DNA from: Chondrosia reniformis
Lineage: Eukaryota; Porifera; Demospongiae; Chondrillida; Chondrillidae
Direction of reading: 5' to 3'
Length of the DNA stretch: 64,000 bases
Assembly (NCBI GenBank): GCA_947172415.1
Contig: OX359196.1
Coordinates: 498,501-562,500, forward strand
Shown piece by piece: positions 8,263 to 40,906 of this stretch. Numbering within the stretch: position 1 is the first letter of the stretch; each line of letters opens with the position of its first letter. The notes below the pieces were generated by a model. The model searched no databases. It was given only the letters and a program-made list of their open reading frames with translations, and was not told where the DNA came from. Made by a program: the position numbers and the translations under genes.

Positions 8263-9400
8263 TGATAGAGTTACAGAAATGCAGTTAATGTACTGTTTTG
8301 TTAGAGAAAATTGCGTAATACTATATATGGCCGACCGTTAGAAGGTATAATATTATAATAAAGACAAAATTCCATACTATATCTGAAAATCTAGAATACT
8401 TTCCAATTTTTTTATACATAGGGATATGCACTGTGTAGTACTTGATTGTTATTGAAGTACTATCTATCCATATATGTTATATGGATCTCGTTAAAGTGAA
8501 ATTTCGTCAATCGACAGCCAACGAAACTCCAAAGAAAAAAAGTTGGACCATACCGAACGCTACCATCCACGACGCTCATAGGCCGGGATCGGTGGTAACG
8601 CTCTGCCGAGTTGAGCTTTGGGTGTCACTTGCGTGAGAAGAACCAGTTCTTCTCGATATGGCCGACTCATATGAATCCTTAAAGATATCAGATGCCAATC
8701 CCACATTACGTGGAACCCCCCCGAAATCCGGATTATTGGTGAGCACGTCTCTATGGCACCAACCGATTAGGAGACAGCTTCAGAGTCTAAGCGCTACCAA
8801 CCTCTATGGGAACCGCAACCACCATAGAGATGTGTCCAGGTAGGCCTACTATATAAGGTTTTTCGCTTCTATTATATGAAGTTTTGTCCAAAGAAAACGG
8901 TTGTGGTTAGGACCTTTTTTAATATATTTCTCCTTATTTCCAGATCAGTGAATTGTTTCAAGCAAGTTTAAAGACATAGGCAGTATTAGTGGTTCACCTG
9001 AAAACTGGGAAAAGCGAAAAAAATCCTGTAAGTGTCTTGATGGGCCGAGGAGAACGACTTTTCTGATCCCAATTATTTTCGAGAAATCGTCAATTTATTC
9101 CACGTTAATTCCAGACCAGTGAATCGTTCCAAGCAATTTTACACACATACGCAGTATTTCCAATACATCTCAAAACTGTGGCACATGGATAAAAGCCTGT
9201 ATGTGTCTTGGTGGAGGGAGGAGAGCGACTTTTCATGAAACAGAAAACTAGAGATAGTGAGAGGTCCGATATTTATCGCCTTGACGATATTAATGTCTAT
9301 GATCGATATTTCAACTGACCCGGCTGTAGGATTACTCTAAGTCTAATTCCAAAACTTAAGTTTTAGCGTAATGTACCGAGATTCAAATTTCTATATATAT
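8263..9400. repeat. Satellite-embedded ~1.1-kb module, copy 2
   Basis: Second copy of the module at 1926-3055, in the same orientation and with the same junction to the satellite monomer. The conserved core is at about 8517-8850, with its perfect hairpin at 8634-8653. The 3' part is more diverged than the core. Confidence 0.85.
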
Positions 9401-9735
9401 GCTAAATAATGTTTTCTTTAAAGAAACTGTAAGGTTTTTAAATATATATCCTGTCTATACATAAATAGCTACGCATGTATTGTGAGAGATAGGGCAAATA
9501 TGAACATATATTTTACACTTCAAAAACCTTTTAGAAATGTTTCATACATGCCTGTGATTACTGATATAAAGTATTAGCTTCATAATGTTGGTGTTTGATA
9601 GAGTTACAGCCCTAAATGTACATTAACTACTAATAAACAAAGTTAATGTACTTATGTTTGGTGAGAAATAGGGCAAATTTTAAGTTCCATCAAAATTTCA
9701 AAAACTCATTGGACATACTCCATAGGTGTCTGCCT
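9401..9735. repeat. Degenerate satellite monomers at array edge
   Basis: Two decayed relatives of the 169-bp monomer are recognisable from GTGAGAGATAGGGCAAAT (9481) and TGGTGAGAAATAGGGCAAAT (about 9659). They carry many more mismatches and small indels than monomers inside the array, as expected at the eroding edge of a satellite block. Confidence 0.75.
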
Positions 9736-9923
9736 ATGGGTATATGAGTAGCATACGTATGTGGTATGTATGCTTTAGGAATGGAGGGGTCGCAGAATTG
9801 CCCATTAATTTTCCTGTCATGTGACCCCATGTGACTAAGACTAAATCAACCAATCAAATCAATCGGAAGTCTCTTCTAGTCTAATCCAGACTGAAACCAC
9901 CTGTCCCACCTGTGCATCCACAG

Positions 9924-11022
9924 GAAGTGACTGAAGACAAAACAGGAAGTAATACAGGACCCACAAGGGCACTTCCTGTAAAGCCTAATACAAGGACAGT
10001 TACTCCTTTACCCCAAGCTCACGGAGAGGAGAGTGCAAAGAGCATTCCTCTCCGGCCGGCCAGCACTCCACTGCAGTGCCATTCCACTCCAATCACTGAC
10101 AAGACCGCAAGGAAGAATGAGGCCAATCCATCCTTCAGTCTGAGCTCCATCAAGGGACAGCCAGACCACTCCCACCTGACCAGCAGTCAGACACTGGGCA
10201 AGCCCGGGGCTGCAGTGAGTAGCATAACATCATCCTTCACCATTATCAGACCTTGTCAATGAGGTCAAATGCCTTGACCTGTGTGCATCTCTTGGATACA
10301 CACATACTATCCAGTATACGTATCTCCATCTTTCCACTACATATGTGCGTATCTGTTGATTTTACTCTCCTAATCTACGTACATTTCCATGTAAATAAGA
10401 GTTATTAAATAATTATTTGCAATTGGTCAGTTTTGTCGTTCTGTACGTAAACACGATGATTCTCTTTCCATTACCATGGCAGTGTGTGGGTGGTAAGCAA
10501 CTGCCAAAGAGGAAGAGCAGACTAGTAGAAGTAGGGGCTTCCCCCAAACTACTCCCAGCTGCTGAGAACAGGCCAGCATTGCGCAAGTCCCTCCCAGTGG
10601 CACCTGGTTTGAAGAGGAAGGCACTCTATGACAGAAATGCAAAACAGTCTAATCCTACCAAACCGGCTGGTCCTGTAAAGACAGTTAATCTTCACCAACT
10701 AAAACCTCCAGCTAAAGATGTAGAGAAAACTGCACTCAAGGTACACATGGATAGAGTGTATTATATCTGTGTAGTACGTATATAGCTAGTTACTCACACC
10801 ATGATAATGTATGATGCTTATACGTACACACAAATCAGTTCTACTGCTAAGCTTTAAAGGTACATATGTTTCACTTTGTCCCTCAATCATTCCACTACCA
10901 TTGTACGTAGAATGGGTGTGTAGATTAAGTTTTTCTCTCCCTCCTGTCTCTCTATGTAGAAGAAGCCATCAAGAAAAAGTCTTCTTGTTCAACCTGCAGT
11001 TAGAGTTAAACCTTTAAAATAG
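9924..11022 (+). CDS. Unrecognised basic, Pro/Ser/Lys-rich protein, C-terminal three exons
   Basis: Three exons join in frame: 9924-10214, 10483-10740 and 10960-11022 (stop). All are phase 0, with GT-AG sites (donors GTGAGT and GTACAC; acceptors CAG, CAG, TAG). They give 204 residues ending VRVKPLK. The chain is low-complexity, rich in Pro, Ser, Thr and Lys, with several basic clusters (KRKSR, LKRK, KKPSRK), and no domain is visible. There is no ATG at the front: the first exon starts behind a CAG acceptor, so upstream exons are required, yet satellite begins only 190 bases upstream. The gene is therefore either 5'-truncated or has exons beyond the array. The function is not known; the composition would suit a nuclear or chromatin protein, which is only a guess. 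Confidence 0.55.
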
Positions 11023-11827
11023 ATAAGTAATATATTCTTAATTATTTACAGTAAATAAATTGAATAATCTAATACGTTCATATTGGAACTGTAGCTATAA
11101 TATAATTAATTGTGGTTCAGTAAAAAAAGGACCAAAGTTTTATAGCTCAAACTTATAAGCTTTCATTTAGATTCTGAACACGAAATATAAGGTAAATAAT
11201 AGTCTGCGGAGCAGAAGGTCTGGCTCGCCAGACTAGGTAAATAACTGCTTTCGACCATTTTATCTATGTCGCAACAGTCCGAATTTTTTTACAAATATAT
11301 ATTTTTTTAAAAGGAGCTCTTTTTGTCAATATACTCAACCAAATTCAGTCTAGTTTGAAAGGCTCTTTTATTCGATATCTGCAAAGGAACAATACATGTG
11401 AGTTTACTTCTTTCGGAGTCGCTAGTTTCAGGCTTTTTAACACTGGTGAGGTTTATTACCTCGAGCTCCGTGTTGCTAACGCTATCCATTAGGGCGAAGT
11501 CAGTACTTAGCTACATAATTCGCCATACGTGGTCAACGATTATAAAGTTTGCCGCGAAATTCTCGTCGAAATTTTCGTCTTTCTATAATAATATGTACGC
11601 ATTCGCTGTTCGTTTCCATTTCCTCATTTCCTATTTCCTATTTCCTATTCCCCTTTTTAGGCCAACCCCTATACCTTTAACTGGTACACAGACGCAGGCT
11701 AGGGTTAAAACCGAATTTTGGCATCGAACTGCAAATTGCCTACGTCATGATGTATAATACCAGCGGGTTTCTTGAGATATTAAGTACGCAAATTTAAGAA
11801 ATATATTGGGAATGCATTCCACCACAG
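11023..11827. other. Intergenic, no gene seen
   Basis: AT-rich spacer between the preceding gene and the transmembrane exon. It contains a short palindromic stretch, GGTCTGGCTCGCCAGAC (about 11218-11234), which looks like the end of a mobile-element remnant. The plus-strand open frame at 11398-11757 has no protein-like features. Confidence 0.5.
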
Positions 11828-12078
11828 ATTGTACTATATCAGTAGTATTTATTGCTATAGCAGTTGCTGTTATTGCTAGTGTTATCTCCTCAATCCTCAC
11901 TTACTACTGTTGTGTGAAGAAGAAGCATAAGAAAAGAGACTCAGTAATTATAAGAGAGCAGAAAGACGAGTATGAAACAGTAGAGCAAGTTAAGACACAT
12001 GAAGAAGTTGAGATACAGCCATCACCAGCTTATGGAGTAGTCATGCATACTGAAGGAACAAGATTTGTAAACAAATAA
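11828..12078 (+). CDS. Orphan receptor exon: transmembrane segment plus tyrosine tail
   Basis: Terminal exon that starts in phase 1 behind a CAG acceptor and encodes 83 residues plus a stop. In order it has a short extracellular stub, a hydrophobic segment of about 22 residues (ISVVFIAIAVAVIASVISS...), a CC pair, a stop-transfer cluster KKKHKKR, and a cytoplasmic tail with YETV and AYGVV. It is paralogous to the exons at 22694, 25347 and 29209. In this copy the middle tail tyrosine is histidine (KTHEEV). No FN3 or signal exon lies between the satellite and this exon, so it is either the 3' end of a gene whose other exons lie elsewhere or a stranded fragment left by unequal exchange. The frame is intact. 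Confidence 0.6.
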
Positions 12079-13057
12079 CAGCTATACATTCATTTCCAAT
12101 ACTTTTGATAGAATAATCACCTCAAAATACAAAAGCATTTATCTACGTATATAGCCACACATTCTTTACTAATAATTTATAAATTGTTAATTTAAAGAGC
12201 TAGTATACCCTTTATATTCTTCAAGTAAAAAATAAATTTTAATTTGTGTGTTCGATGTAAGTAAATATATTACATCTACATACTTATTCTAATTGATATT
12301 ATATTGAAGTTAACTTTCCATAATACAACACATTATGTATATAATTCAATAAAAATCTAACTATATGGTGATATTAATTATTGATATCGGTTCAGTAAGA
12401 AAGGGCTAAAGATTACAATGACAAGTAATTTTATAGCTCATAAGCTTTCATTTACAAGATGACATATTATGTCACCCAAGTTCCTTATGATCTTTCTTAA
12501 TGGACTAGAAGACATTTACTCAATTAGTTCTACATTAGTGATTTTATAGTATTTACAGGCTATGAATGTACAATACAAGTACAATATGGTACCCGTATTA
12601 CTACAATTATCTTATATACTTGTATGACCTATGGTATAAGACTGTGTATATATGAGGTTTATATATCTGTACTGTAAAGTAACAAATTCCGAATGCTAAA
12701 GAGTATCCATTTCTTCTATATACAAGTTAAATTAATATCTGCTATATATATGCAGTCAGATAAATTACAGGTCCCATATATAGGTGACTGCATGGATATG
12801 GACTGGGTACTAATGTATTTCTATATAGAGGCTCTAACAAGATCTCATGATAGAGGTGTTGGGAGAACAAGCTGATTACATTAATGTTTCTCTCTGTAAC
12901 ATACACAAGATAATTGAATCTGTACATATAGCTATCATTGATTAGCTTTGTTTAGTAGCTCTTTCATGCAAGAAAGTGACAATATTAATGTTATTAACCA
13001 TTCAAAAGTATACAATGCTTAAATCAGAAAACAGAAAGCTAGCTCTCATTGTTGCTC

Positions 13058-13109: not shown

Positions 13110-14238
13110 GTCTCTATATATATATATATATTATTTCATTAAGCAACAGTTATAAGCTAATTAACATTTATATCTTTTTGAAAATGAGGATATATATAGA
13201 CAGTAGTTTTCCATTTAAAATATATTGTCGAAGTTATTTTATAATTCATTGAGGATCAGAGTGCACCCTATAGCAAACCAAACCCTGCATGGTTGGTGCG
13301 TTGATATACTGTATATACTATATACGCGTACGTACATTTTTACAGATTAATTTTGCATTTATCTATTGCAAGTTGAGTTATAAACAAACGTTATATTTCT
13401 TATATTCTAAGGTATTTTTAGTATATGAATAAAGGCTATGTATAATTATATAATTTGGTGATTTTTTAAATTAAGAGTGCACAAATGAACAGTTAAGATT
13501 CTTGTATACATTACAGATTTCACACTTGTATAGAATAATGACGAAGTTGTGCTCACCATCCTTCCTATTCCAAGTACTATTGATGTGTGTATGTCAAATA
13601 CATGCAGGTACGTACTTGTATAATGCACAGTTAGTCCAATATAAGTTGCTTGCTGCATATAGTTGACATGCGTATGAGGTGAAGGAAATATATTTATTAA
13701 TTAGAATGTTTTCTAATTAGGTTTTTCATAAATCTTTTATTATTATATATTTTTCTACTAGATTCATATTTATATAGAATTTATACTTAACACAACACCT
13801 AAGGCCATACATGCAGGCAATTTGGTTCTCAGTTGATCATAATGCAAGTACTGTAGCTTGAAATATTTGGATAGGAGGTTATTTTTCATTTTCATTATTA
13901 ATAATTGAAAACATTTTGTATAATCAACGTATATAATGTATATAACAGGAACATGCACTATACTGCCTCAACACATATTAGTGTGTCATTCATATATATA
14001 TATATACAGTGCAAGTTACAATATATATATATATATATAAATAATGTACATACGTACACAACTACGTATATACAAATCATATGCCAAAACTTGTTATTGC
14101 ATGGTACTTGTCTCTGGATAAACTAGGAACGGAGTTTGCCTATAGCTTCATTTTCAAGTCCATTCTGTTTTTAATTTTTAAATGCTATTTTTATAGTCTA
14201 TATACATTATATATGCATGTACAACGAAATTGTGATTG

Positions 14239-14739: not shown

Positions 14740-15033
14740 TTCCCTCCCAGGTAACAGGAGTGACTGTTACTCCATCCTCAATGAATGGATCTCCCAATTT
14801 AAGAGTCACATGGACTGGACCTACTGGTAGTGGAATAACATACATTATAAAGTACTCTACTACTAATCAAGCTAGTCCACCACAAAATGCAAGAGAAAAG
14901 ACAACATTCACTAGATCAGTCACTTTGACAGAAGGTATTCAACAAGGTACCACATATTATGTTTGGGTTGCTGCTATTAAGAATGGTCTTCAAGGAAACT
15001 ACAGCAGTAGGAGATCAGCAACGTCATTTTCAG
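14740..15033 (+). CDS. FN3 exon A1
   Basis: Phase 1-1 exon of 98 codons with FN3 hallmarks: VTVTPSSMNGSP, LRVTWTGPTG, YYVWVAAIKNG. Acceptor CAG after a TA-rich tract; donor G|GTTTGT. The closest relatives are A2 and A5. Confidence 0.85.
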
Positions 15034-18000
15034 GTTTGTTTTAAGCAATGTTTGTGCTTAAACTCACCTTTTAATTGCATAAAAGTGTCATGTTTCCTTT
15101 AAATTCTACATATATAACCATTTGCAAATGCAAATCTTAGCTTTGTTGCACATACACTGTTGCATATTCAGCAAAATTGTTCTCTGATCTAATTAAATTA
15201 TAAAATGATCATACATTGCTCGATGGTAGGATTAATGTAGCTGCATGTCCAGTCACCCTGTAAAACGTTCCCATTAATTAGACCAGATGATTGCTGAAGT
15301 GTAGGGTAACAGACACTGTATATAGTTTAATATCTGAAGCAATCATATAGTATAGTTATCATATATATGAATATACACTCATCCTTACCTATCAATCCGT
15401 ATCCATTCAGTCGATCATCAATACATATTGTATTTTAATATTTTATGGTTTTACACATGCATGTTGCAGGAAGTCATAATTCAGTCAAATGCCTGCTGTA
15501 TTGCACACTATATACATACCTGACACTATAATACTTCTGGTCCATTTTACAAAAGAATTGTAAAGTGTCGATCGTTTTGATGACTTTGTGTGCATGAATT
15601 GTCTTTTCTGTAGCAAGTAATGCTTCAGCTCCTACTAATGTAATGGCAAGTCCACTATCAGGACAAGTTGGTATTAGAGTATCTTGGACTGCACCAACTC
15701 TTCCAACAGGTCTACCCATCACTGGATACTCAATACAGTACAAGATAAGAGGATCTGGAATGACATATGTGAATATGACAGGTGGGGCTGGTAAAACTCA
15801 AAGAGATATAACTAATTTACAGAGTAGCACTGAATATCGTATCAGAGTTGCTACAATAACTGGTTTAGGAACAGGACCATACTGTTGTTATAACCCAAAC
15901 AGAGTGTTTGTTACTACTAGTGAGTATTATATTTCATGCATATCCATACATGGAATATTAATGTTATCATGAAGAGTACAAGCACAAGGCCAAAATATTA
16001 GTGTATAATATACTTTCACCATACATAGCACCAGATCGGGTTGGAATGGTGAATATCACTAGCTATAGAGGTGTGGAGAATGGTTCTTCAATCTTGCTAA
16101 TCTCATGGAATGCAGTTCCCTCAGGAGGAGGAGCACTTATAACCTACACTGTGTGGTATTCAACAAGTAGTGGTACTACAACAGAACCACCTTCTGGAGC
16201 ATCAACCATGTCAGAAATCACTGGTACATCAATTACACTGAGTGGACTTACACAAGGTACAAGATACTACACTTGGATAGCAGCTGTTTCATCAGGTGGA
16301 CAAGGACCTTACAGTACAAGAGTGTCAGAGATTACATTTGGAGGTACTGTATATCATACGCATTAATTCATTATATATATATTTATTATATATATGTACA
16401 AGTACTTCAAGTAGGCTAGGAGTGCTTTATGTGATTTATGGCACGAGGTGTGAGGTCGAGTTGCTGATAAAGCACAAGGCGAAGCTCTTATCATGCAAAG
16501 ATTATTTGTTTGTGATGTAGCAAATAGTTCTTCAAAACCATGGTTCTGATGGTGTATATAGTGCTCCATATACAGATTGAACAACTGTATATATAATGCT
16601 TTGTTGTTGTCGACCAAATCTAGCTTATGAACATATATGTACGTATGCACATATACATACGTATACTAAAACTGTTATCTTTCCTATTCTATATATACAC
16701 AACAGTTTCCTCTCGGGTAACAGGAGTGACTGTTACTCCATCCACAATGAATGGATCTCCCACTTTAAGAGTCACATGGACTGGACCTACTGGTAGTGGA
16801 ATAACATACATTGTAAAGTACTCTACTACTAATCAAGCCAGTCCACCACAAAATGCAAGAGAAAAGACAACATCCACTAGACCAGTCACTTTGACAGAAG
16901 GTATTCAACAAGGTACTACATATTATGTTTGGGTTGCTGCTATTAAGAATGGTCTTCAAGGAAACTACAGCAGGAGGGGATCAGCAATATCATTTTCAGG
17001 TATATATTTTTAAGCAATTTTTGTGTTTAAATTCACCTCTAAAAGTGTCATGTTTCCTTTAAATTCTACATATATAACCATTTACAAATACAACTTTTAG
17101 CTTTGTTGCACATACACCCTGCCTTTAAAGTTTTAGCACATTCAGCAGAATTGCTTTCTGATCTGATTGAATGATCATACATTGCTCGATGGTAGGATTA
17201 ATATAGCTATCCAGTCACCCTGTGAAACCTTCCCATTAATTAATTAGACCAAATGATTGCTGAAGTGTAGGGCAACAGATCTATATACACTGTATATATA
17301 TATAGTCTAATATCTAAAGTAATCATAGCACTTATGAATATATATACACTCATCCTTACCTATATATCCATCACTATCCATTCAGTATTTCAACATTACA
17401 CTATGCAAATGAATATTTAGCTACGTATATATACATGTTTTATAGGAAGTCATAATTCAGTCAAATGCCTGCTGTATTGCACACTATATACATACCTGAC
17501 ACTATAATACTTCTGGTCCATTTTACAAAAGAATTGTAAAGTGTCGTTTTGATGACTTTGTGTGCATGAATTGTCTTTTCTGTAGCAAGTAATGCTTCAG
17601 CTCCTACTAATGTAATAGCAAGTCCACTATCAGGACAAGTTGGTATTAGAGTATCTTGGACTGTACCAACTCTTCCAACAGGTCTACCCATCACTGGATA
17701 CTCAATACAGTATAAGATAAGAGGAATGTTAGATAGTACATATGTGACAGTGACAGTTGGAGCTGGTACAACTCAAAGAGATATAACTGGTTTGCAGAGT
17801 AGCACTCAATATCGTATCAGAGTTGCTACCATAACTGGTTTAGGAACAGGACCATACTGTTGTGATAACCCAAACCAAGTGGTTGTTACTACTAGTGAGT
17901 AATATTTTATGCATATCCATACATGAAATATTAATGTTATCATGAAGAGTACACACATTATTTACAAGGACATAAAAGGCCAAGACCTTTATATATATAT

Positions 18001-21000
18001 GTTATATGATGTTCCTTGAATAATGGTCTCTAACCCTGTTGATTATGCGAATGCATATAACCAACCGTCAGTATTCTTAGCTCCTTCACAAGGCAAATCA
18101 AATCTGTTGTGGTTATTATATAAGATTGGAACCTTTGTTGATATATGGCATACAGATGCATCATCTTCAGTCTATACTAAGGTGTGAAACAGTAATTGGT
18201 ATACCATGTGTTCTACCTTGCAATTGGATGATCTGTATCAACTACTATACTCTCTATGCAGTGTACTATTTAAAATACTGATTATCCTAGGGATCACTTG
18301 CATGAATCTTATATAATGTGAGTGTATGTATACTATTATAATTTAGAGATTATCCTCCAAATGGTGACATTATCCAAACTAAAGCTTGCCTACATGTATA
18401 GTATATTATGTCTGACTCAATATATTTTGATTTAAATACTTTTTATAAAACTGTCAACTTTCCTATACTTTAACACAACAGTTCCCTCTCGGGTAACAGG
18501 AGTGACTGTTACTCCATCCTCAATGAATGGATCTCCCACTTTAAGTGTCACATGGACTGGATCTACTGGTAGTGGAATAACATACATTGTAAAGTACTCT
18601 ACTATTAATCAAGCTAGTCCACCAGAAGATGCTGGAGAAAAGACAACATCCACTAGATCAGTCACTTTGACAGATGGTATTCAACAAGGTAGAAGATATT
18701 ATGTTTGGGTTGCTGCTATTAAGAATGGTCTTCAAGGAAGTTACAGCAATAAAAGATCGGTGGTTTCTTTATCAGGTATATAGGGGAGATGCATAAATTA
18801 TTTGAAATATACATAAATAAAAATGTACTGTTTAAAGCAGTACGTTCATAAAAGCAATAATCCAATTAAAACTCTTTGTATGTTGACTTTGTGCTGCTAT
18901 ACTTTAATGGATTCTTGTATATAGTTCCTTCTGGAGCGATTGTCACTCCATCCTCAATGAATGGATCTCCTACTTTAAGAGTCACATGGACTGGACCTAC
19001 TGGTAATGGAATATCATACATTGTAAAGTACTCTACTACTAATCAAGCTAGTCCACCACAAAATGCAAGAAAAAAGACAACATCCACTAGATCAGTCACT
19101 TTGACAGATGGTATTCAACAAGGTGCTACATATTATGTTTGGGTTGCTGCTATTAAGAATGGTCTTCAAGGAAGATACACCAAAACGTCAACTGTGTCTT
19201 TATCAGGTGCATTGATTGTTTATTTTAAAAAGTTAATAGCATAGCTGAATAATTATCAATACACCATTCTAATATGGTTATCTATATACGTAGGTGTTGT
19301 TACTGTAGCTACAGTGGAACCCCTTTCCACGGACACCCTTGAAAAGCGACATCAACTGTATCCCAACCATTATGTCAGTTCCCAAATGAAATTACATTCG
19401 TGTACAAACTGAACCCCTGAAATATAGAAACCCCTGTAATTTGAAGGCAAATTAGCACGAAAACAATTAATATAACTATTTTTCTTCTTATGCCATCTTG
19501 ACTAGCTGAACGTCAAATGAACACATTAGTAGTGTATCCCCTGAAATGAGAACAATCTCTGACACTTTTGGGAGTCTCAACAGAGGGGTTCCACTGTAGT
19601 ATTAATGTATATACATGTACATCTGTATACATGTATCTTTGATGTTCTTCCAGATGTACTCCATGTGTCACTGTAAAAATTCTTTTCCCTTTTCTATAAC
19701 AGCTCCATCTCAGGTAACAGGAGTGACTGTCACTCCATCCTCAATGAATGGATCTCCCACTTTAAGAGTCACATGGACTGGACCTACTGGTAGTGGAATA
19801 TCATACATCGTAAAGTACTCTACTACTAATCAAGCTAGTCCACCACAAAATGCAAGAAATATTACAACATCCACTAGATCAGTCACTCTGACAGATGATA
19901 TTCAACAAGGTACTACATATTATGTTTGGGTTGCTGCTATTGAGAATGGTCTTCAAGGAAACTACAGCAGTAGGAGATCAGCAAGATCATTTTCAGGTTA
20001 GTTTTAAGCAATGTTTGTGCTTAAACTCACCTTTTAATTGTATAAAAGTGTCATCTTTCCTTTAAATTCTACATAACCATGTAGTATAACCATTTGCAAA
20101 TGCAAATTTTTAGCAAATTTTAGCTTTGTTGCACATTCAGCAAATTGTTTTCTGATCTAATTAATTATAAAATGATTGTACATTGCTCAATGGCAGGATT
20201 AATGTAGCTGCATGTCCAGTCACCCTGCAAAACCTTCTCATTAATTAGACCAGATGATTGCTGAAGTGTAGGGTAACAGACACTGTATATAGTTTAATAT
20301 CTGAAGCAATCATAGTATAGTTATGAATATACACTCATCCTTACCTATCAATCCGTATCCATTCAGTCATCAATACATATTGTATTTTAATATTTTATAC
20401 TTTTTATAAAACTGTCAACTTTCCTATATTTTAACACAACAGTTCCCTCTCGGGTAACAGGAATGACTGTTACTCCATCCTCAATGAATGGATCTCCCAC
20501 TTTAAGTGTCACATGGACTGGACCTACTGGTAGTGGAATAACATACATTGTAAAGTACTCTACTATTAATCAAGCTAGTCCGCCACAAAATGCAAGAGAA
20601 AAGACAACATCCACTAGATCAGTCGCTTTGACAGATGCTATTCAACAAGGTAGAAGATACTATGTTTGGGTTGCTGCTATTGAGAATGGTGTTCAGGGAA
20701 GATACACCAAAACGTCAACTGTGTCTTTATCAGGTGCATTGATTGTTTATTTTAAAAAGTTAATAGCATAGCTGAATAATTATCAATACACCATTCTAAT
20801 ATGGTTACCTATATACGTAGGTGTTGTTACTGTAGCTACAGTGGAACCCCTTTCCGCGGACACCCTTGAAAAGCGACATCAACTGTATCCCAACCATTAT
20901 GTCAGTTCCCAAATGAAATTACATTCGTGTACAAACTAAACCCCTGAAATACGGAAACCCCTGTAATTTGAAGGCAAATTAGCACGAAAACAATTAATAT

Positions 21001-23118
21001 AACTATTTTTCTTCTTATGCCATCTTGACTAGCTGAACGTCAAATGAACACATTAGTAGTGTATCCCCTGAAATGAGAACAATCTCTGACACTTTTGGGA
21101 GTCTCAACAGAGGGGTTCCACTGTAGTATTAATGTATATACATGTACATCTGTATACATGTATCTTTGATGTTCTTCCAGATGTACTCCATGTGTCACTG
21201 TAAAAATTCTTTTCCCTTTTCTATAACAGCTCCATCTCAGGTAACAGGAGTGACTGTCACTCCATCCTCAATGAATGGATCTCCCACTTTAAGAGTCACA
21301 TGGACTGGACCTACTGGTAATGGAATATCATACATCGTAAAGTACTCTACTACTAATCAAGCTAGTCCACCACAAAATGCAAGAGAAAAGACAACATCCA
21401 CTAGACCAGTCACTCTGACAGAAGGTATTCAACAAGGTGCTACATATTATGTTTGGGTTGCTGCTATTAAGAATGGTCTTCAAGGAAGCTACAGCAGTAG
21501 GAGATTGGTGGTTTCTTTATCAGGTATATGGGGGAGCTGCATAAATTATTTAAAATATATATAAAAATGTACAGTTTGAAGCAGTACATTAAAGCAATAA
21601 TCCAATTAAAACTCTATGTATGTTGACTTTTGTGCTGCTATACTTTAATGAATTCTTGTATATAGCTCCTTCAGGAGTGACTGTTACCCCATCCTCAATG
21701 AATGGATCTCCCACTTTAAGAGTCACATGGACTGGACCTACTGGTAGTGGAATATCATACATCGTAAAGTACTCTACTACTAATCAAGCTAGTCCACCAC
21801 AAAATGCAAGAGAAAAGACAACATCCACTAGACCAGTCACTTTGACAGATGGTATTCAACAAGGTGCTACATATTATGTTTGGGTTGCTGCTATTAAGAA
21901 TGGTCTTCAAGGAAGCTACAGCAGTAGGAGATCAGCAAGATCATTTTCAGGTATTTTGTACAATTTTGTGTTATGTTCACCTTCTAAATACATAAAAGTG
22001 TCATCTTTAAATTCCACATGCAACGTTCAGCTTTGTTGCACATACGTACACTCTGCCTTTATAAGTTTTAGTATATTCAGTAGAATTATTCTCTAATAAT
22101 CTGATTGAACAATAATGATCATACATTGCTTGATTAACATAGCTTTCCAGTCACCCTGTAAAACCCCTTCTCATTAAAATGATTGCTGAAAGTGGACCTA
22201 TCTAATATCTAAAGCAATCATAGCACTTATGAATATACACTCATCCTTACCTATCCATCACTATCCATTCAGTATTTCAACATTACACTATGCAAATATT
22301 TAGTGAGTATTATATTTCATGCATATCCATAGATGGAATATTAATAATGTTATCATGAAGAGTACAAGCACAAGGCCAAAATATTATATAGTGTATATAC
22401 TTCACTATATATAGTCCCTGATGAGGTAGGAATGGTGATCTTTGTGATGTAGCAAATACAGTAGTTCTTCCAAAATAAGAAAGTGGTCACATTTTTGGTT
22501 TAATGGTGTAGTGCTCCATATACAGATTGAACAACTACACGTGTGTACATGTATGGAACCAAGCTAATACACATGCATATGTATATATATATATTAGATT
22601 ACCTTAGTATATTGTATATAACTTGCACTGTATATATATATATGTCTGCTATATAGAACTTTATCTATTTACGTACATATATTTAATATGTAGTTATTAG
22701 CACATCTACCAGTAGATTGGACAGTACATCTAAGAGCACATCTACTGGAACTACATATGTCTCCAATAACCCTACTACCAATATTGCTACTACCAGTCCA
22801 TCTACCAGTCCATCTACTGTCTCTTGTAATCGAATGATTCAAAACACTTTCATGAATTGTACATGTGAACATGTATCAGGAGTTTCATTGTATGTATCAG
22901 TAGTATTGACTGCTACAGCAGCTACTATTATAGCCAGTATCATCTCCTCAATCATCACTTACTTCTGTTGTGTGAAGAAGAAGCATAAGAAGAGAGAGTC
23001 AGTGGTAGAACAGAGAGACATCTATGAAACAGTAGAGCAAGTTAAGACATATGAAGAAGTTGAGTTACAGCAGTCACCAGCTTATGGAGAAGTTACACTG
23101 AAGGAACAAAATTTGTAA
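14740..23118 (+). CDS. Multi-FN3 single-pass receptor with YxxV tail (gene-level model)
   Basis: Twelve in-frame exons: 14740-15033, 15614-15919, 16029-16343, 16706-16999, 17586-17894, 18482-18775, 18925-19206, 19703-19996, 20443-20733, 21230-21523, 21666-21950 and 22694-23118. The first eleven each encode one fibronectin III domain (three subtypes, order A B C A B A A A A A A). The last encodes a Ser/Thr-rich stalk, a transmembrane helix, KKKHKKR and a tail with YETV, YEEV and YGEV. Every internal junction is phase 1, so any FN3 exon can be skipped, repeated or swapped without a frameshift. The product would be a type I cell-surface protein. Ligand and signalling partners cannot be read from the sequence. 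The signal-peptide exon is uncertain (13058-13109). Introns are duplicated along with the exons, so whether all eleven belong to one transcript is unproven. Confidence 0.7.
15614..15919 (+). CDS. FN3 exon B1
   Basis: Phase 1-1 FN3 exon of a second subtype: IRVSWTAPTLPTGLPITGY, then YRIRVATITGLGTGPY. It carries an extra CC pair near the end. Donor A|GTGAGT. Paralogues are at 17586-17894 and 28117-28419. Confidence 0.85.
16029..16343 (+). CDS. FN3 exon C1
   Basis: Phase 1-1 FN3 exon of a third subtype: LLISWNAVPSGGGALITY, then YYTWIAAVSSGGQGPYS. Donor G|GTACTG. Paralogue at 28537-28842, and a truncated start at 22415. Confidence 0.85.
16706..16999 (+). CDS. FN3 exon A2
   Basis: A-type phase 1-1 FN3 exon of the same length as A1. 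The upstream intron sequence is also shared with A1 (compare about 14630-14740 with 16596-16706), so the copy includes its flanks. Confidence 0.85.
17586..17894 (+). CDS. FN3 exon B2
   Basis: B-type FN3 exon, phase 1-1. It differs from B1 by a one-residue insertion and substitutions around RGMLDSTYV. No C exon follows this B exon, unlike B1 and B3. Confidence 0.85.
18482..18775 (+). CDS. FN3 exon A3
   Basis: A-type phase 1-1 FN3 exon with GRRYYVWVAAIKNG. Only about 150 bases separate it from A4, an arrangement repeated by A7 and A8. Confidence 0.85.
18925..19206 (+). CDS. FN3 exon A4
   Basis: Shorter A-type FN3 exon (94 codons). The usual SQVTG start is replaced by a shorter SGAIV, and the end is YTKTSTVSLSG. 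The following intron carries the 285-bp TA-flanked element. Confidence 0.85.
19312..19596. mobile_element. 285-bp MITE with CAGTGGAACC termini, copy 1
   Basis: Begins CAGTGGAACCCCT and ends AGGGGTTCCACTG, with a TA dinucleotide on each side (19310-19311 and 19597-19598). The terminal inverted repeats plus a TA target site fit a pogo/Tigger-type non-autonomous element. It is intronic. The second copy at 20839 arose by segmental duplication, because flanking sequence is shared too. Confidence 0.8.
19703..19996 (+). CDS. FN3 exon A5
   Basis: A-type phase 1-1 FN3 exon preceded by a good CT-rich tract (CTTTTCTATAACAG). Upstream DNA is near-identical to that of A7, and downstream DNA resembles that of A1, so the locus is a mosaic. 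Confidence 0.85.
20443..20733 (+). CDS. FN3 exon A6
   Basis: A-type FN3 exon. Its front and upstream intron match A3 and its end (YTKTSTVSLSG) matches A4, suggesting a recombinant exon formed from A3-like and A4-like parents. Confidence 0.85.
20839..21123. mobile_element. 285-bp MITE with CAGTGGAACC termini, copy 2
   Basis: Near-identical partner of 19312-19596, same length and same TA flanks, inside the duplicated intron. Confidence 0.8.
21230..21523 (+). CDS. FN3 exon A7
   Basis: A-type phase 1-1 FN3 exon. The start matches A5, and the end (RLVVSLSG and the following GGGGGAGCTGCATAAATTATTT) matches A3. Confidence 0.85.
21666..21950 (+). CDS. FN3 exon A8
   Basis: Short A-type FN3 exon (95 codons) with the SGVTV start like A4 but the SSRRSARSFSG end like A5. 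It is the last intact FN3 before the transmembrane exon. Confidence 0.85.
22415..22440 (+). pseudogene. Truncated start of a C-type FN3 exon
   Basis: An acceptor followed by VPDEVGMV, as at 28537, runs after about 26 bases directly into sequence found downstream of the C exon elsewhere (TTTGTGATGTAGCAAATA, compare 16509). The rest of the exon was deleted. Confidence 0.65.
22694..23118 (+). CDS. Stalk, transmembrane and tyrosine-tail terminal exon
   Basis: Phase 1 start behind TAG. Encodes a Ser/Thr-rich stalk (STSTGTT, SPSTSPSTV), two Cys around NRMIQNTFMN, a transmembrane helix of about 23 residues, CCVKKKHKKR, and a tail with YETV, YEEV and AYGEV before the stop. The three tyrosines are 9 and 11 residues apart, with YxxV spacing that loosely resembles an ITAM. 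Confidence 0.8.
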
Positions 23119-23870
23119 ACAAATGCCAGCTACATTCCTTTCCAAATTATAATAACCAGCTCAAGCAATGCAACACAGATTACATATTATTAAATAAGTT
23201 AAGAGTCTGCCTTACAAAAATATCCATTATTCTTCTACTTTGTGGAATGTAAGTAAAGTACATTACTCTACTGATATTTCACATTCATATTTTGAAGTTA
23301 GCTTTCCATATTACAAAAATGTCAATTCATGACACACAATAATTCATGTAATTCTGTGAAAATCTAACATTACAGTGGCAAATGTTTTTAGCTCAATCTT
23401 ATAAGCTTTCATTTACAAGCTGCATGATTGGAGATGACATTATGTCTCCGTGCTCCTTATACGACTTTTCTAATGGACTAGAAGACATTTACTCGATTTT
23501 GTTCTACATTAGTGACTTTAAAGAAATGTATATACATTATAATGGTATGACTACAATTAAGTACTTGCATGACTTATGGTAAGACTGTAAATATTTGAGG
23601 TTTGAGTATGGAAATTCCTAAAGCTTGTTCTCATCTGAAGTTTACGATTTTTATTGATACATCAACAACTTCTACGTATGCGACAAGAAAGACCTTATTA
23701 TTTTCGTGTTTTGTCATATTTAGGAGTTAGTTTTCCATTATAAGTAATTACTGACTGTAAATAAATAAACAAGTCAATAATAAAGAATATAACGTTTGGA
23801 CGTTGCCAGACCTATCCGCCCACCGTATGACGTCAACAAATAAACAAGTATTTCGAGTTTAAAAACTCGT
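23119..23870. other. Intergenic
   Basis: 3' flank of the FN3 receptor. It shares blocks with the flanks of the other tail exons (for example TTTATAAGCTTTCATTTACAAGCTG, also near 26130, here at about 23398). No gene seen. Confidence 0.5.
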
Positions 23871-24257
23871 GGGGCTGCCGCCCCCCGAATCAATTCGAAC
23901 TACTTGGCCGTATCGTTGGCATTTAATATATGTATTCGTAATACTAACGATTGAGGACGCTTAAGTGTCCTGAACACTATAAATAGCGACAGAAAAGCTT
24001 CGTTAACTAAAGCTTCCTGAACGCCGCCATTTGCAAAACGATGTATTGATGTATAAATTAAGTATTATAAAGTATTATAATAGTTGCGTATATATGAACC
24101 TGTATTAATTATATAACGACGTATAAATAAAGTGTTATAATAGTTGCGTATCAACCCGTATTATATATATAGATATATATATATATATCTTTCCGTAACA
24201 TGAAGCCATACAACGTAATCGGCAAATGAAAACAATATAAGGGGCTGCGGCAGCCCC
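23871..24257. mobile_element. GC-hairpin-ended MITE, copy 1
   Basis: Begins GGGGCTGCCGCCCC and ends GGGGCTGCGGCAGCCCC; outer 10-bp inverted termini GGGGCTGCCG/CGGCAGCCCC. A second hairpin, CGAGTTTAAAAACTCG, lies just outside the left end. The interior is shared with 50710-51072, including GTTAACTAAAGCTTCCTGAACG. It ends only about 67 bases before the start codon of the next receptor gene. Confidence 0.75.
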
Positions 24258-24323
24258 TAAAAAGGAGGCGAGATAGGCGCATACGCGAGACTAATTTACC
24301 CCGGTGCGCCCTCTACAGTTATA

Positions 24324-25732
24324 ATGCCAAGTAGATTATTTCTTATGCTGCTGGCTATTGCAGATCTAGGGCTTAAGGTGTCTTTAACAATTGGATGTAA
24401 GTTGGCAAAGTTACATTACAGTTGCATGGAATTGATTGCATGTTGATCTGTTGTGTTTATCAGTTTCAAACTTCACCTTAGCAGTGCAAGAAGTCCCAAT
24501 AAGTAGCTATATCTACTACCCCAAAGTTCTCAAACAAGATAGATATGGAGACCCAGCTTGTAGCAGTAATTCCACTCCTTTTGCTCACTGGACATGTCAG
24601 AAGAACACAAGTACTCGTCTTCCTGGTCTGTCTGATAATAAAACAAGAGATGGATCCACCTATGAATGGAGGGCAATCAGTAAACCTGTTGTAGTGATGA
24701 ACATGGAACGAACTATGTGTGTCAAATCAGTCAAAATCACATATTTGGTAGTAGATGCTGTGAATGTAATCTACAAGATCCCCTTTTTAAATATCTCTGT
24801 GCACGGCTGTGCTGAAGGCATGTTCTTTGAGGAAGGAACCAAGTTTTATTTTCCAAATGTAAATCTTACTGAACACTATATACATGCATACATATGGAAG
24901 CTCTACAACTTGATTGAGCAACCTTGTGGTTGCTATGTTAGGATTGAGATGGCTAATGTCAATGGAAGAATTGGACTGGTTGAAGTGGATGTATTAGCAG
25001 AAAACAAAAAAAGAGTTGGTAAGTAAGCAGTGAAGCTAGACACAAGGCTGTTTGAAGTTTTGGTTCGTCAAACATATCTATGGATGCATGGGTCATCCTT
25101 TGATTTTTGAGCATCTAGAGACGCAGTTTTGTTAAACTTATAGTCAGACGTTTTGACCCTGGGGGTCTTCTTCAGTGACTTAACAACAAAACTGCATCTC
25201 TAGATGCTCAAAATGTTGAAGAATGAACCATCCAAGAGATAACGTATATATAGGTTTGCTAGAGCCATATATGAACACTTTTTATAGTTAATATACCTGT
25301 CCTGTAATGATGCAATTTTGATTTACATTATCTGTAATGAATGTAGTCACTACCAATATTGCTACTGCCAGTCCATCTACCAGTCCATCTATCAGTCCAT
25401 CTACCAGTCCATCTACCAGTCCATCTACTGTCTCCTGTAATCGAATGACTCAAAACACTTTCATGAATTGTACACATGAACAAGTATCAGGAGTTTCATT
25501 GTATGTATCAGTAGTATTGACTGCTACAGCAGCTACTACTATTATAGCCAGTATCATCTCCTCAATCCTCACTTACTTCTGTTGTGTGAAGAAGAAGCAT
25601 AAGAAGAGAGAGTCAGTGAGAAAACAGAGAGACATCTATGAAACAGTAGAGCAAGTTAAGACATATGAAGAAGTAGAGTTACAGCAGTCACCAGCTTATG
25701 GAGTAGTTACACTGAAGGAACAAGATTTGTAA
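24324..25732 (+). CDS. Complete three-exon receptor with galactose-binding-like ectodomain
   Basis: Exons 24324-24396, 24464-25018 and 25347-25732; both junctions are phase 1; 337 residues. Exon 1 is a signal peptide (MPSRLFLMLLAIADLGLK). Exon 2 encodes one ectodomain of about 185 residues with several N-glycosylation sites (NFT, NST, NTS, NKT, NIS, NLT) and six or more cysteines. Its strand pattern and its end, GLVEVDVLAE, suggest a jelly-roll or galactose-binding-like fold, which is my inference. Exon 3 is a (SPST)n stalk, transmembrane helix, KKKHKKR and a tail with YETV, YEEV and YGVV, paralogous to the FN3 receptor tail. The same tail module is therefore attached to a different head. All splice sites are canonical (GTAAGT donors). 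Confidence 0.75.
25105..25213. repeat. Long inverted repeat with hairpin motif in its loop
   Basis: Arms of about 29 bases (starting TTTTGAGCATCTAGAGA) face each other with one mismatch across a loop of about 50 bases. The loop holds the hairpin motif at 25150-25175 (minus strand CTGAAGAAGACC...GGTCAAAAC). It lies in the intron before the last exon of the preceding gene. Confidence 0.75.
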
Positions 25733-28116
25733 ACAAATAACAGTCAAATTCTACTTTATTTGATACATAGAATAATCACCTCATGCAATAGTATTATACC
25801 TACGTATATAGCCACACATTCTTTATAATGTTATTAATAAATAAGTTAAGTTTAAAAGAGCTATAGTCTACCTTATACAATTCTTCTAAAAATAATTTTA
25901 ATTTGTTTGTGCAATGTAAGTAAAGTATATACATCTTAGACTAATTATTCTATAATGATATATGAAGGTAGCTTTCGAATTCCATATTATAAGCTATAAA
26001 CAAAATGTCAATATGCATGAGTTTCATATAACACACAACACTTCATGTACGTAGTTATCTAACTGTATGGTGATATTAATTAATTATGGTTCAGTAAGAT
26101 ATTACAGTGGCGAAGTAATTTTGTAGCCCAAATTTATAAGCTTTCATTTACAAGCTGATTGGAGATAAAATTATGTTTCCAAGCTCCTTATGACCTTTCT
26201 TAATGAACTAGATGACATTTACTTGATTTGGTTCTACATTAGTGATTTTATATATAGTCTTTACAGACTATATGAAAATGTACATGTATACATATACATT
26301 ATGATGTTATGATGGTAGACTATATATTATATTATTAAAAGTGACATGTGCCAGAAGGGCACTAGGCCAAGCTGGGGCCCTTGGGGCCTTCCGTCGCTCC
26401 AGTATAGCTCTCTAGGGGAAGAACTAAGCGCTTGCTTTTCCTCGCAAAGCCACTCGAACTAGCCATCACTTCGCAAACAAACGATGGGCGTTAATAAGAG
26501 TATGCGACCTTCGAGTCCGGATAATCCGAGCAGCCGGTTAATTGAGGTACAAACATTACTTCCAAAGGTTTAATAATTAGATTTTAATTGTTTGTTTGTT
26601 TATAAACACAACTTGCACTTTGCATAAAATTATGTTCACACTGTAGGTTCGGATAACCGAGGTTCTACTGTATACTGTAGTTTAAAATACGTATATTGTC
26701 GAAGTTATTATTATTGAGGATTAGAGTGCACCCTAGCAAACCAAACCCTGCATGGTTGGTGAGTTGATATTCTGTGTACTATATACAGTCACAGATTAAT
26801 TGTTTATCAAGTTGAGTTATATGTATTATAAAGTTATATTTCTTATATTCTAAGGTATTTTTAGTATATGAATAAAGGCTATGTATAATTATATAATTTG
26901 GTGATTTTTTAAATAAAGAGTACACAAATGAACAGTTAAGATTCTATAATTTCTTGTATACATTACAGATTTCACACTGGTATAGAATAATGACGAAGTT
27001 GTGCTCACCATCCTTCCTATTCCAAGTACTATTGATGTGTGTATATCAAATAGGTACGTACTTGTGTAATGCACGTGACTATATACTTCAATATAAGTTG
27101 CTATATAGCTGTATAGATATAGTATAGATATATATAGATAGACAGTTTTTCTAATAAGTCAAAGCCTATATACATTATTATAGAGCTTTGGATGAACATA
27201 CGTACATTTGTATAGAAGGAGGAGAATTTATATTCATATATAGAATGTACTTAACACAACACCTTAAGGCCATGCAGGCAAATTTATCATACTTATAATG
27301 CAAGTAGTTTGAAATACGTATTTGGGTCGGAGGTCATTTTTTCTATATTTTCGTTATTCATTGAAACCATTTTGTATAATCGACATATAACATATATAAC
27401 AGGCACGTGCACTAGTACTGCCTCAACACATGTTAGTGCATCATTCACAAATCATATATGTACGTACACAGCTGTATAAAACTAATGTGTTAGTATTATT
27501 ACTGTTAAATATTCTAATACACCACTCTCCTACATGCTATGCCTATTCTTCTAAATTAAAAAGCCTATAGGGAACTAAACCTGGTAAGAGGTTTAGATGA
27601 AGATACAGGAGTCTTCTCTTTCTTCTTTTACTCCACTGGGCCATATACTGTATATAACAATTCATTTTTCACTGGGCTAGTATATATTATCAGAAAATAT
27701 ACGTGCAATACTTCAAGCAGACAACATAAAATGGCTGCCTTATTCAAAGTCAGAGAGTATGGCAGTGCTCTCTAAGTAGGGATGGCCAGAAAAAACATTG
27801 CCACTCTATTCAAAGTATTTTAATTATGATCTTAAAGATTGAAATTAATTAAATATTATCATGCACAGTTTAATCTTACAACTATTAACCGGGGACACAA
27901 TTGAAAGGTGTGTTATGCTTCCTGTTGTCCTTGGCTATACAACTGCTATAAAGTAAGGATACTCATTTAACATTGATAAACTATATATGCAGAGATCAAA
28001 CAAAAAAGCATGATAAGTCTGGTCTTCAAGGCAGATTCAGCTCTGATCCATTTTACAAAAGAATTGTAAAATGTCATTTTGATGACGTTTTTGTGCATGA
28101 ATTGTCTTTTCTGTAG
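25733..28116. other. Intergenic, partly a duplicate of 12-14 kb
   Basis: Shares long blocks with 12079-14000. It also holds a pogo-type terminus GGATAACCGAGGTTCTACTGTA (26650-26671) without an obvious partner end, and at about 27545-27655 a dispersed repeat also seen in the methyltransferase introns. No gene is supported; the minus-strand frame at 26889-27074 is a duplicate of the one at 13446 and is not protein-like. Confidence 0.5.
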
Positions 28117-29465
28117 CAAGTGATGCTTCAGCTCCTACTAATGTAATGGCAAGTTCACTATCAGAACAAGTTGGTATTAGAGTATCTTGGACTGCAACTC
28201 CTCCAACAGGTCTACCCATCACTGGATACTCAATACAGTATAAGATAAGAGGATCTGGAATGACATATGTGAATGTGACAGTTGGAGCTGGTACAACTCA
28301 AAGAGATATAACTGGTTTACAGAGTAGCACTCAATATCAGATCAGAGTTGCTACCATAACTGGTTTAGGAACAGGACCATACTGTTGTGATAACCCAAAC
28401 AGAGTGTTTGTTACTACTAGTGAGTATTATATTTCATGCATATCCATACATGGAATATTAATGTTATAAATTATGAAAAGTACACCCACAAGGCCAAAAT
28501 ATTAGTGTATAACATATATACTTTCACCATGCATAGTCCCAGATGAGGTAGGAATGGTAACTGTCACTGGTGAATACTATGGTTACCCAACCTTGCTAAT
28601 CTCATGGAATGCAGTTCCCTCAGGAGGAGGAGCACTTATAACCTACACTGTGTGGTATTCAACAAGTAGTGGTACTACAACAGAACCACCATCTAGAGCA
28701 TCAACAATGTCAGGAATCACTGGTTCATCATCTACACTGAGTGGACTTACACAAGGTACAAGATACTACATTTGGGTAGCAGCTGTTTCATCAGGTGGAC
28801 AAGGACCTTACAGTACAAGAGTGTCAGAGATTACATTTGGAGGTACGGTATATCATACACATGAATTATTCATTATATATATTTATTATATATATGTACA
28901 AGTACTTCAAGTAGGCTATGAGTGCTTTATGTGATTTATGGCATGAGGTGTGAGGTCGAGTTGCTGATAAAGCATGAGGCGAAGCTCTTATCATGCAAAG
29001 ATTATTTGTTTGTGCATGATGTAGCAAATACATAGTTCTTTAAAAATAAAAAAGTGGTCACATATTTGTTTTAATAATTTCTGTGAGTTTAGCATTAATT
29101 CTAATGGTGCACGTAGTGCTCCATATAAAGATTGAACAACTATGTCTATATACATATACCTGACACTATATAGCTGTGGTCCATTTTACAAAATAGTCGA
29201 CTACACAGGTTGCAATTGTGGATCAGCAGTTACGTCGTTTGTATTAGTAGTATTGGCTGCTACAGTAGCTACTATTATAGCCAGTATCATCTCCTCAATC
29301 CTCACTTACTGCTGTTGTGTGAAGAAGAAGCATAAGAAGAGAGAGTCAGTGAGAGAACAGAGAGACATCTATGAAACAGTAGAGCAAGTTAAGACACATG
29401 AAGAAGTTGAGATACAGCAGTCACCAGCTTATGGAGTAGTCATACTGAAGAAACAAGATTTGTAA
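28117..29465 (+). CDS. Two-FN3 receptor with transmembrane/tail exon
   Basis: Exons 28117-28419 (B-type FN3), 28537-28842 (C-type FN3) and 29209-29465 (transmembrane and tail), all joining in phase 1. The tail exon lacks the Ser/Thr stalk. It encodes CNCGSAV, a hydrophobic helix, CCVKKKHKKR, then YETV, KTHEEV (middle Tyr replaced by His) and AYGVV, ending KKQDL. The B-C-TM order matches the B1-C1 pair upstream. No signal-peptide exon was found between 25733 and 28117, so this may be a fragment, an alternative 3' end, or a gene whose first exon I failed to see. The B3 exon keeps the conserved FN3 core. Confidence 0.65.
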
Positions 29466-40300: not shown

Positions 40301-40712
40301 AGGTAACAGGGAGAGGATCTCATCTCTGTCACTATCTGTAAATTTAACTGCCTCAGTGTCCAGGTGCATCCCTTCCACTGTAGCCTTGTCACTATGGCTC
40401 TCCCAATACTTCACTAACTGCTCCCTCTCCTGCACACAGCAAGGATTCAAAATATTATCCTTGAGTCACTCCTTGTTATCTCTAGGCTATAGCGTTGTGT
40501 CAAATAGGTGTATCCCCGCGCATGAAACTTGTTACAATTAATTAACCCTACGTAGGCACACAAAGAGCCTAATGGCTCCATGTAGCACTGTACAGAGAAA
40601 TATATAATGTCACCGTTCATTGCAGATTTGCTCAGTCAAACTCAGGCCTCGAAATCCTTACCGATAAATTCTCTACTCCTCCAACTGATTGATCCGCTGG
40701 ATGGATATTCAT
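37320..40712 (-). CDS. PEAMT: Phosphoethanolamine N-methyltransferase, copy 1
   Basis: Thirteen minus-strand exons: 40712-40662, 40429-40292, 39917-39791, 39731-39616, 39542-39458, 39392-39287, 39204-39120, 39032-38811, 38622-38524, 38350-38235, 38086-37960, 37752-37624 and 37439-37320; 506 residues. There are two SAM-methyltransferase domains, as in plant enzymes: motif I of the first is [16 protein letters not shown] and of the second is [15 protein letters not shown]. Other family landmarks are [51 protein letters not shown] and KWGLFLATK. The enzyme methylates phosphoethanolamine stepwise to phosphocholine using SAM, in the cytosol. All exons are intact and all splice sites canonical. It is the first of four tandem copies and lies tail-to-tail with KIN17. 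Confidence 0.92.
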
Positions 40713-40881
40713 ATCTGTTCAACAGTAAGACAGAAACGGACTGGAAACCTTGAATTAGTTTAGTCACTCACCGTATTGACCCTTACCGGTACCATTGAGA
40801 TATATCGTCGTATAAATTGGGAAGTTAAATTAGAAGGGATTCAAATGAGTCTCAGCAACACAATTTTTATCAAATTTGGAC

Positions 40882-40906
40882 GTTTCAAACCGAAGGTCTT
40901 CATCAG
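40882..40906 (-). other. Hairpin motif resembling hammerhead core
   Basis: Minus strand reads CTGATGAAGACCTTCGGTTT then GAAAC, upstream of methyltransferase copy 1. The duplicate is at 46173-46197. Confidence 0.35.

Follow-up and report, generated by a model that had tools for sequence, protein, structure and literature searches.

A tandem cluster of three predicted type-I receptors in the sponge Chondrosia reniformis, with a shared tail type and signs of recent exon-level shuffling

We analysed a stretch of 64,000 nucleotides from chromosome 8 of the sponge Chondrosia reniformis (chr8:498,501-562,500, hereafter the window; one haplotype of one individual), and we interpret it as a tandem cluster of three putative type-I receptors with swappable heads, a shared tail and exon-sized exchange, a reading to which we assign a probability of about 0.7. 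The initial annotation of this DNA had proposed modular receptors, with one tail type fitted to several heads and remodelled by exon shuffling. The first part of this proposal was borne out by three open gene models and by related tails elsewhere in the genome. Recent exon-level shuffling is likewise supported, as far as sequence comparison can indicate, by apparently chimeric exons encoding fibronectin type III (FN3) domains, by the same head on two different tails (chr8 and chr13), and by exon-limited copies on chr6 and chr7. The genome searched comprised 15 contigs and 117,379,552 bases; the genome note reports 117.37 Mb, with 14 chromosomes and a mitochondrion (PMC12181767).

In-silico splicing produced three open genes with phase-1 junctions and signal-peptide-like first exons at 13538, 24324 and 26990. 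Gene 1 joins the signal exon at 13538 to 11 FN3 exons (in the order a b c a b a a a a a a) and the tail exon at 22694, encoding 1250 amino acids. Gene 2 joins the signal exon at 24324 to an ectodomain exon, running from 24464 or 24482 to 25018, and the tail exon at 25347 (337 or 331 amino acids), and gene 3 joins the signal exon at 26990 to one FN3-b exon, one FN3-c exon and a tail exon beginning at 29197 or 29209 (313 or 309 amino acids). The splice sites confirmed the exon inventory given earlier, namely four tail exons, 13 FN3 exons of three subtypes (eight a, three b, two c) and one distinct ectodomain exon, all bounded in phase 1. An AG acceptor and an in-frame phase-1 GT donor were present in 13/13 FN3 exons, some of which have more than one possible donor; one module per exon with phase-1 ends, the class 1-1 arrangement, was found for all 13 and for the ectodomain exon. 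The Pfam scan covered nine window segments, four of which were FN3 exons (one a, one b and two c, out of 13), and fn3 exceeded its curated cut-off in all four. The exons and associated elements, in window coordinates, are as follows.

11828..12078, plus strand: orphan tail exon with no head found (AG acceptor, tail similarity)
13538..13607, plus strand: gene 1 signal-peptide exon (MTKLCSPSFLFQVLLMCVCQIHA), ending in phase 1 (splice model)
14740..15033, plus strand: gene 1 FN3-a exon (splice sites, domain comparison)
15614..15919, plus strand: gene 1 FN3-b exon (splice sites, domain comparison)
16029..16343, plus strand: gene 1 FN3-c exon (splice sites, domain comparison)
16706..16999, plus strand: gene 1 FN3-a exon (splice sites)
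17586..17894, plus strand: gene 1 FN3-b exon, close to a chr6 exon (splice sites)
18482..18775, plus strand: gene 1 FN3-a exon (splice sites)
18925..19206, plus strand: gene 1 FN3-a exon (splice sites)
19703..19996, plus strand: gene 1 FN3-a exon (splice sites)
20443..20733, plus strand: gene 1 FN3-a exon, apparently chimeric, 18482-type then 18925-type (p=0.0006)
21230..21523, plus strand: gene 1 FN3-a exon, apparently chimeric, 19703-type then 18482-type (p=0.0019)
21666..21950, plus strand: gene 1 FN3-a exon, apparently chimeric, 18925-type then 19703-type (p=0.02)
22301..22438, plus strand: truncated remnant, made up of b-c intron sequence and the start of an FN3-c exon (85.9% identical to 15918-16052)
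22694..23118, plus strand: gene 1 tail exon (AG acceptor, alignment)
23839..24263, no strand assigned: dispersed repeat of about 425 bp, resembling a miniature inverted-repeat transposable element (genome matches)
24324..24396, plus strand: gene 2 signal-peptide exon (MPSRLFLMLLAIADLGLKVSLTIG) (splice model)
24464 (or 24482)..25018, plus strand: gene 2 ectodomain exon, unclassified domain (phase 1 at both ends)
25347..25732, plus strand: gene 2 tail exon (AG acceptor, alignment)
26990..27053, plus strand: gene 3 signal-peptide exon (splice model)
28117..28419, plus strand: gene 3 FN3-b exon (splice sites)
28537..28842, plus strand: gene 3 FN3-c exon (splice sites, Pfam fn3)
29209..29465, plus strand: gene 3 tail exon, acceptor at 29197 or 29209 (AG acceptor, alignment)

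The claim that the heads differ from one another held for the FN3 array as against the ectodomain of gene 2 and failed for gene 3, which mostly duplicates the 5′ portion of gene 1 (15536-16537 versus 28042-29045, 90.6% identity). Across the genome, the region of the gene 1 signal exon matched itself and, at 82%, the beginning of gene 3, and nothing else; the gene 2 signal exon had no other copy among the matches listed. An inverted repeat, seen as an opposite-strand self-match at 25085-25234, lies in the intron between the ectodomain and tail exons of gene 2.

Within the FN3 array of gene 1, the blocks 18938-19978 and 20465-21505 were 96.6% identical and the blocks 18477-19182 and 21225-21923 were 91.9% identical, so the two halves of the array carry their intron types in permuted order. 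At each of the exons 20443, 21230 and 21666, the 5′ and 3′ introns are of different types; if recombination had taken place within the exon, its identity should switch in the same order as its introns. The predicted order fitted 20443 with 5 misfits at 31 informative sites (p=0.0006; 15 misfits in reversed order), 21230 with 7 at 35 (p=0.0019; 15 reversed) and 21666 with 6 at 30 (p=0.020; 10 reversed), the p-values deriving from permutation in three tests without correction. For 20443 alone, the parents predicted from the flanks were the best of all pairs; the nearest relative of 21230 is 21666, and vice versa. These three exons look chimeric in the order that their introns predict, a result new to the present analysis.

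Furthermore, FN3 and ectodomain exons of the window have copies on chr6, chr7 and chr13 that lack matching introns, which is also a new observation. At 82% amino acid identity or more, FN3-a exons were confined to gene 1 (eight), chr7 (one) and chr6 (one), the next candidate standing at 50% (best 150 of 541 candidates). The chr6 and chr7 copies were 88-94% identical to the eight window exons, with a synonymous divergence (dS) of 0.07-0.24, and the identity of their 250-bp flanks was 0.53-0.60; by chance, 30 random pairings averaged 0.545 and peaked at 0.604. Comparison of FN3-b and FN3-c exons with chr6 comprised 26 distinct pairs (18 b pairs, from 21 listed, since L057:2409 and L059:821 are one exon, and 8 c pairs); dS was 0.03-0.14 in 23/26, the best pair reached 96.0%, and flank identity was 0.54-0.68. 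The 3′ flank values were taken off the true edge for the b exons L057:965 and L059:2412, whose ends were set too short, and for the c exon L060:1504, set too long; the blastn tracts of these chr6 exons are independent of the misplaced ends. Around the chr6 FN3-a exon, 56/60 of the strongest non-self matches stayed within one exon, as did 25/25 of those on other chromosomes, and the four matches entering an intron all lay on chr6 (best 40 of 281 candidates, 13 weaker rows uncounted, first exon tested at its 3′ edge only). Matches limited to the tail exon, of about 220-230 bp, were likewise found between tail genes on chr8, chr10 and chr13. Overall, the best interchromosomal exon pairs were 92-96% identical with dS mostly 0.03-0.24, and their introns were unrelated in nearly all pairs tested. 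We also observed very large FN3 clusters on chr6 (320-460 kb, 820-1290 kb and 5.38-5.60 Mb), and the genome probably holds many more FN3 exons than those scored (best 150 of 2147 candidates).

The ectodomain exon of gene 2 matched nothing in Pfam, NCBIfam or PDB sequences at E<=1, so that the profile search recommended in the initial annotation returned no family, and AlphaFold2 with a two-sequence input gave a mean predicted local distance difference test score of 30.6; the domain stays unclassified. One other copy was found in the genome, at chr13:6543680-6544210 on the minus strand, with 96.4% identity over 529 bp. The pair differs by 8 synonymous and 13 nonsynonymous changes over 177 codons (dS about 0.07), and the identity of the flanks was 0.57 and 0.58. 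To judge from open frames, the chr13 copy has a different signal exon and a different long tail with tyrosines of its own, this tail being single-copy in the genome search. The chr13 copy adjoins a discoidin-receptor kinase gene (DDR DS-like domain and tyrosine kinase). Derivation of the ectodomain from this neighbouring discoidin receptor was considered and dropped; no sequence match supports it.

The tail exons at 22694, 25347, 29209 and 11828 are related far beyond chance, for example at 94.3% identity between 22790-23137 and 25401-25751. In gene 1, a Ser/Thr-rich stalk, present also in gene 2, is followed by a transmembrane segment, CCVKKKHKK and then YETV, YEEV and SPAYGEV. With one tail as query, 35 of 41 scored candidates across the genome were tail matches, distributed over chr8 465-528 kb (7), chr8 7.57-7.84 Mb (5), chr10 (10), chr1 (7), chr13 (2), chr3 (2), elsewhere on chr8 (1) and chr9 (1). 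Thirty tails were read out and aligned. In their common layout, a transmembrane segment is followed by Y.CC.KKK or a close variant, then YE.V, a middle motif that varies, and finally SPAY..V; 28/30 have two or more Y-x-x-[ILV] motifs, which suggests that the tails may act in phosphotyrosine signalling. Heads were sought with Pfam within 1.5 kb upstream of tails, in eight segments of seven loci, and the other loci were read by eye. Upstream of tails outside the window were immunoglobulin (Ig) and FN3 domains (L020, L031), Ig (L023) and Sushi (L038), and four head segments from three chr1 loci gave no Pfam match. At the loci examined outside the window, too, a single tail type stands behind several heads. 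The same module thus appears in otherwise different proteins, the ectodomain on two tails and the tail behind Ig, FN3, Sushi and unclassified heads.

Three of the four exons originally counted as receptor tails (22694, 25347, 29209) belong to gene models, and the fourth, at 11828, is an orphan for which no head was found. Its dS from the three gene tails was 0.29-0.49, and tails like it were present at chr8 465, 470 and 477 kb, where its upstream gene (gene X) also recurs, together with a 169-bp satellite. In the window, this unit spans 9735-12145 and consists of the 3′ end of gene X and the orphan tail, whose frame is open in all four; two copies of the gene-X unit among the matches listed showed 96.0% identity over 1.4 kb and 97.6% over 2.9 kb, the longer being mostly satellite. 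The satellite occupies blocks 6-1930 and 3057-8276 of the window and blocks at chr8 466-487 kb, where it adjoins other orphan tails. Tail 11828 is best read as an orphan carried by a tandem unit, and its open frame leaves a function possible. An excess of nonsynonymous divergence (dN) over dS in the tails of genes 1-3 was not used as a sign of selection; it rests on one or two synonymous differences.

Two comparisons served as controls. Among the 28 pairs of window FN3-a exons, 11 share an intron type (flank identity 0.68-1.00, the cut-off of 0.68 having been picked after the values were seen) at dS 0.05-0.17, and introns therefore need not vanish at such an age. Moreover, a segment with Ig and FN3 exons on chr2, chr11 and chr13 has kept its introns at 94-96% identity over 2.5-2.9 kb (three copies compared), substantiating that ordinary interchromosomal duplication looks different; shorter or interrupted copies of it lie on chr2, 9 and 13. 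A fragment with Ig, FN3 and a further FN3-like exon together with introns was seen at L068 1-3000 (chr13:3364501-3367500), L069 and L070. Fragments of this type occur on chr2, 9, 11 and 13 at 92-97% identity, with an in-frame stop in the FN3 of three copies, and were possibly captured by a mobile element.

In the model that we propose, each gene would consist of a signal exon, class 1-1 ectodomain exons and a terminal exon for the transmembrane segment and for a short tail in which Y-x-x-[VIL] occurs two or three times. The variable head would bind a ligand, whereupon the tail tyrosines could be phosphorylated and recruit SH2 or PTB proteins. Heads would change by exon-sized exchange, most simply through unequal crossing-over within the array and interlocus gene conversion, both using exon homology; where the introns of the converting loci are already unrelated, the conversion tract would stop where the exon does. 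Conversion of the ectodomain presupposes that both genes already had the exon, the alternative being exon transposition. Extending this model to a genome-wide exchange, in which single FN3, Ig, other-head and tail exons would be copied as class 1-1 units and furnish a poriferan repertoire for self/non-self or symbiont recognition through shared tyrosine-motif tails, is speculative and in our estimate improbable.

Several observations weigh against the exchange reading. Inside gene 1, too, 17/28 FN3-a pairs had a flank identity below 0.68, so dissimilar introns are no peculiarity of pairs on different chromosomes; the permuted array predicts these 17 pairs. No paralogous introns that could tell insertion from replacement were found for the FN3-a exons of chr6 and chr7 (best 40 of 281 and 40 of 232 candidates). 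A b exon on chr6 stands further off, with dS 0.43-0.52 in its three pairs, and the chr6 locus L060 has a b-c intron in common with the window (80% over 514 bp, exon parts included), so that not every interchromosomal pair is exon-limited. Longer matches also connect the tail clusters, spanning FN3-Ig over 0.4-0.8 kb between chr8, chr10 and chr13 and about 1.3 kb between chr10 and chr13. Among the putative chimeras, 21230 is better fitted by 21666 then 18482 (7 mismatches versus 12 for the predicted pair) and 21666 by 21230 then 19703 (6 versus 10). The b exon at 17586 differs from a chr6 exon at 12/303 sites and from its tandem sisters at 24/303 and 19/300; its conversion from chr6 was considered (bootstrap 1855/2000) and is equivocal, the tree also fitting retained ancestral states. 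A strict immunoreceptor tyrosine-based inhibitory motif (ITIM; [SIVL]xYxx[IVL]) was present in 0/4 window tails and 3/30 tails overall. Finally, the splice sites of all three gene models are predicted ones.

Compatible with the exchange of exons, the cluster could be a sponge immune or allorecognition locus like Hydractinia Alr or the Botryllus fester co-receptors, which we consider possible, with the odds against it. The tyrosine motifs in 28/30 tails and the clustering of paralogues with heads of several kinds accord with such a role, and the head-swap layout resembles uncle fester, which has 3′ exons in common with fester and a 5′ end that is not (PMC12065747). Divergence speaks both ways: dN exceeded dS in most FN3-b/-c pairs with chr6, whereas dN was below dS in most FN3-a pairs. 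The window tails, however, have no strict ITIM, and adhesion or the sensing of bacterial symbionts would leave the same picture.

That the exon-limited copies were spread by RNA- or transposon-mediated exon transposition, instead of gene conversion, we regard as unlikely. The ectodomain argues for it, since only two copies were found and conversion would need the exon in both genes beforehand; a high-copy repeat lies directly before gene 2, and a receptor segment is dispersed over four chromosomes. Nevertheless, at the loci inspected, the shared tracts include a few bases of intron next to the splice site, and they never join two exons without the intron. The repeat in question, of about 425 bp, has at least 39 further long matches on 12 chromosomes at 93-98% identity (best 40 of 2905 candidates); it ends about 60 bp before the ATG of gene 2 and may supply its 5′ region. 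Window 50681-51078 is related to it through L068 and by eye.

Least likely, in our judgement, is ordinary tandem duplication and divergence of adhesion receptors, with fast intron turnover, exons under purifying selection and no interchromosomal exchange: gene 3 plainly duplicates part of gene 1, the 17 intron-dissimilar pairs of gene 1 would fit, and class 1-1 FN3 genes are common in animals (PMC8001218), but synonymous divergence is low throughout (about 0.07 for the ectodomain, 0.07-0.24 for FN3-a, 0.03-0.14 in 23/26 FN3-b/c pairs), introns can survive in local duplicates of similar dS (the 11 pairs), the dispersed segment keeps them between chromosomes, and the two ectodomain copies differ in both signal exon and tail.

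Elsewhere in the window, three tandem gene copies with a common motif in three frames lie on the minus strand at 37400-50500, presumably encoding S-adenosylmethionine-methyltransferase-like proteins, and a glutamine synthetase gene lies at 62635-63850 (Pfam Gln-synt_N on its first part).

Among known recognition systems, Hydractinia Alr genes encode candidate allorecognition receptors with Ig-superfamily heads and tyrosine signalling motifs. High polymorphism that goes with fusion or rejection marks Alr and also Botryllus fuhc. No Pfam Ig family scored above cut-off in the nine window segments scanned; one Ig_RIMBP2 and one Ig_7 match, both sub-threshold, fell on window FN3 exons. Calx-beta domains are typical of the sponge aggregation factor, and none was found among Pfam matches at E<=1 in the same nine segments. 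The fester co-receptors of Botryllus (PMC12065747) are clustered, have tails with a core Y-x-x-[ILV] and include uncle fester, which combines the 3′ half of fester with a new 5′ half. The sponge genes share with them the clustering and, among tail motifs, only this core; fester has Ig and Sushi heads and a tested role in allorecognition, whereas the window heads are FN3 or unclassified. The full fester layout (a V-type Ig, a Sushi and two C2 Ig domains, with a long tail that may carry an ITIM or a hemi-immunoreceptor tyrosine-based activation motif) is not present in the window genes. In zebrafish NLR-B30.2 genes, which encode NOD-like receptors (NLRs), gene conversion differs by exon and can spread recognition modules between gene groups (PMC4852459). 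As in the sponge, domains there sit on single exons, but NLRs are not surface receptors and most of their genes lie on one chromosome arm, whereas the sponge copies cross chromosomes. The sponge genes work partly like these systems and are not members of them by the features tested. A literature search, which covered titles and the beginnings of abstracts and left most subscription papers out, returned no such gene family and no exon-limited copies in sponges, which leaves their absence unproven.

Exon shuffling is usually inferred from ancient proteins. The swaps in this cluster look recent, with dS of a few to about twenty percent, so that donors, recipients and breakpoints can be mapped, and conversion, crossing-over and transposition can be tested against one another as ways in which class 1-1 modules move; named loci are also on offer for seeking sponge recognition receptors. 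Class 1-1 modules, bounded by phase-1 introns, are the general currency of exon shuffling in animals and have been tied to the rise of animals, as set out by Patthy (PMC8001218). Consistent with that process, the sponge genes have one domain per exon with phase 1 at both ends, in extracellular or membrane proteins built of FN3 and Ig modules; unlike the classic cases, the sponge copies are recent (dS mostly 0.03-0.24) and, from one chromosome to another, confined to the exon. Collectively, the cluster is a form of class 1-1 exon shuffling whose traces are unusually fresh.

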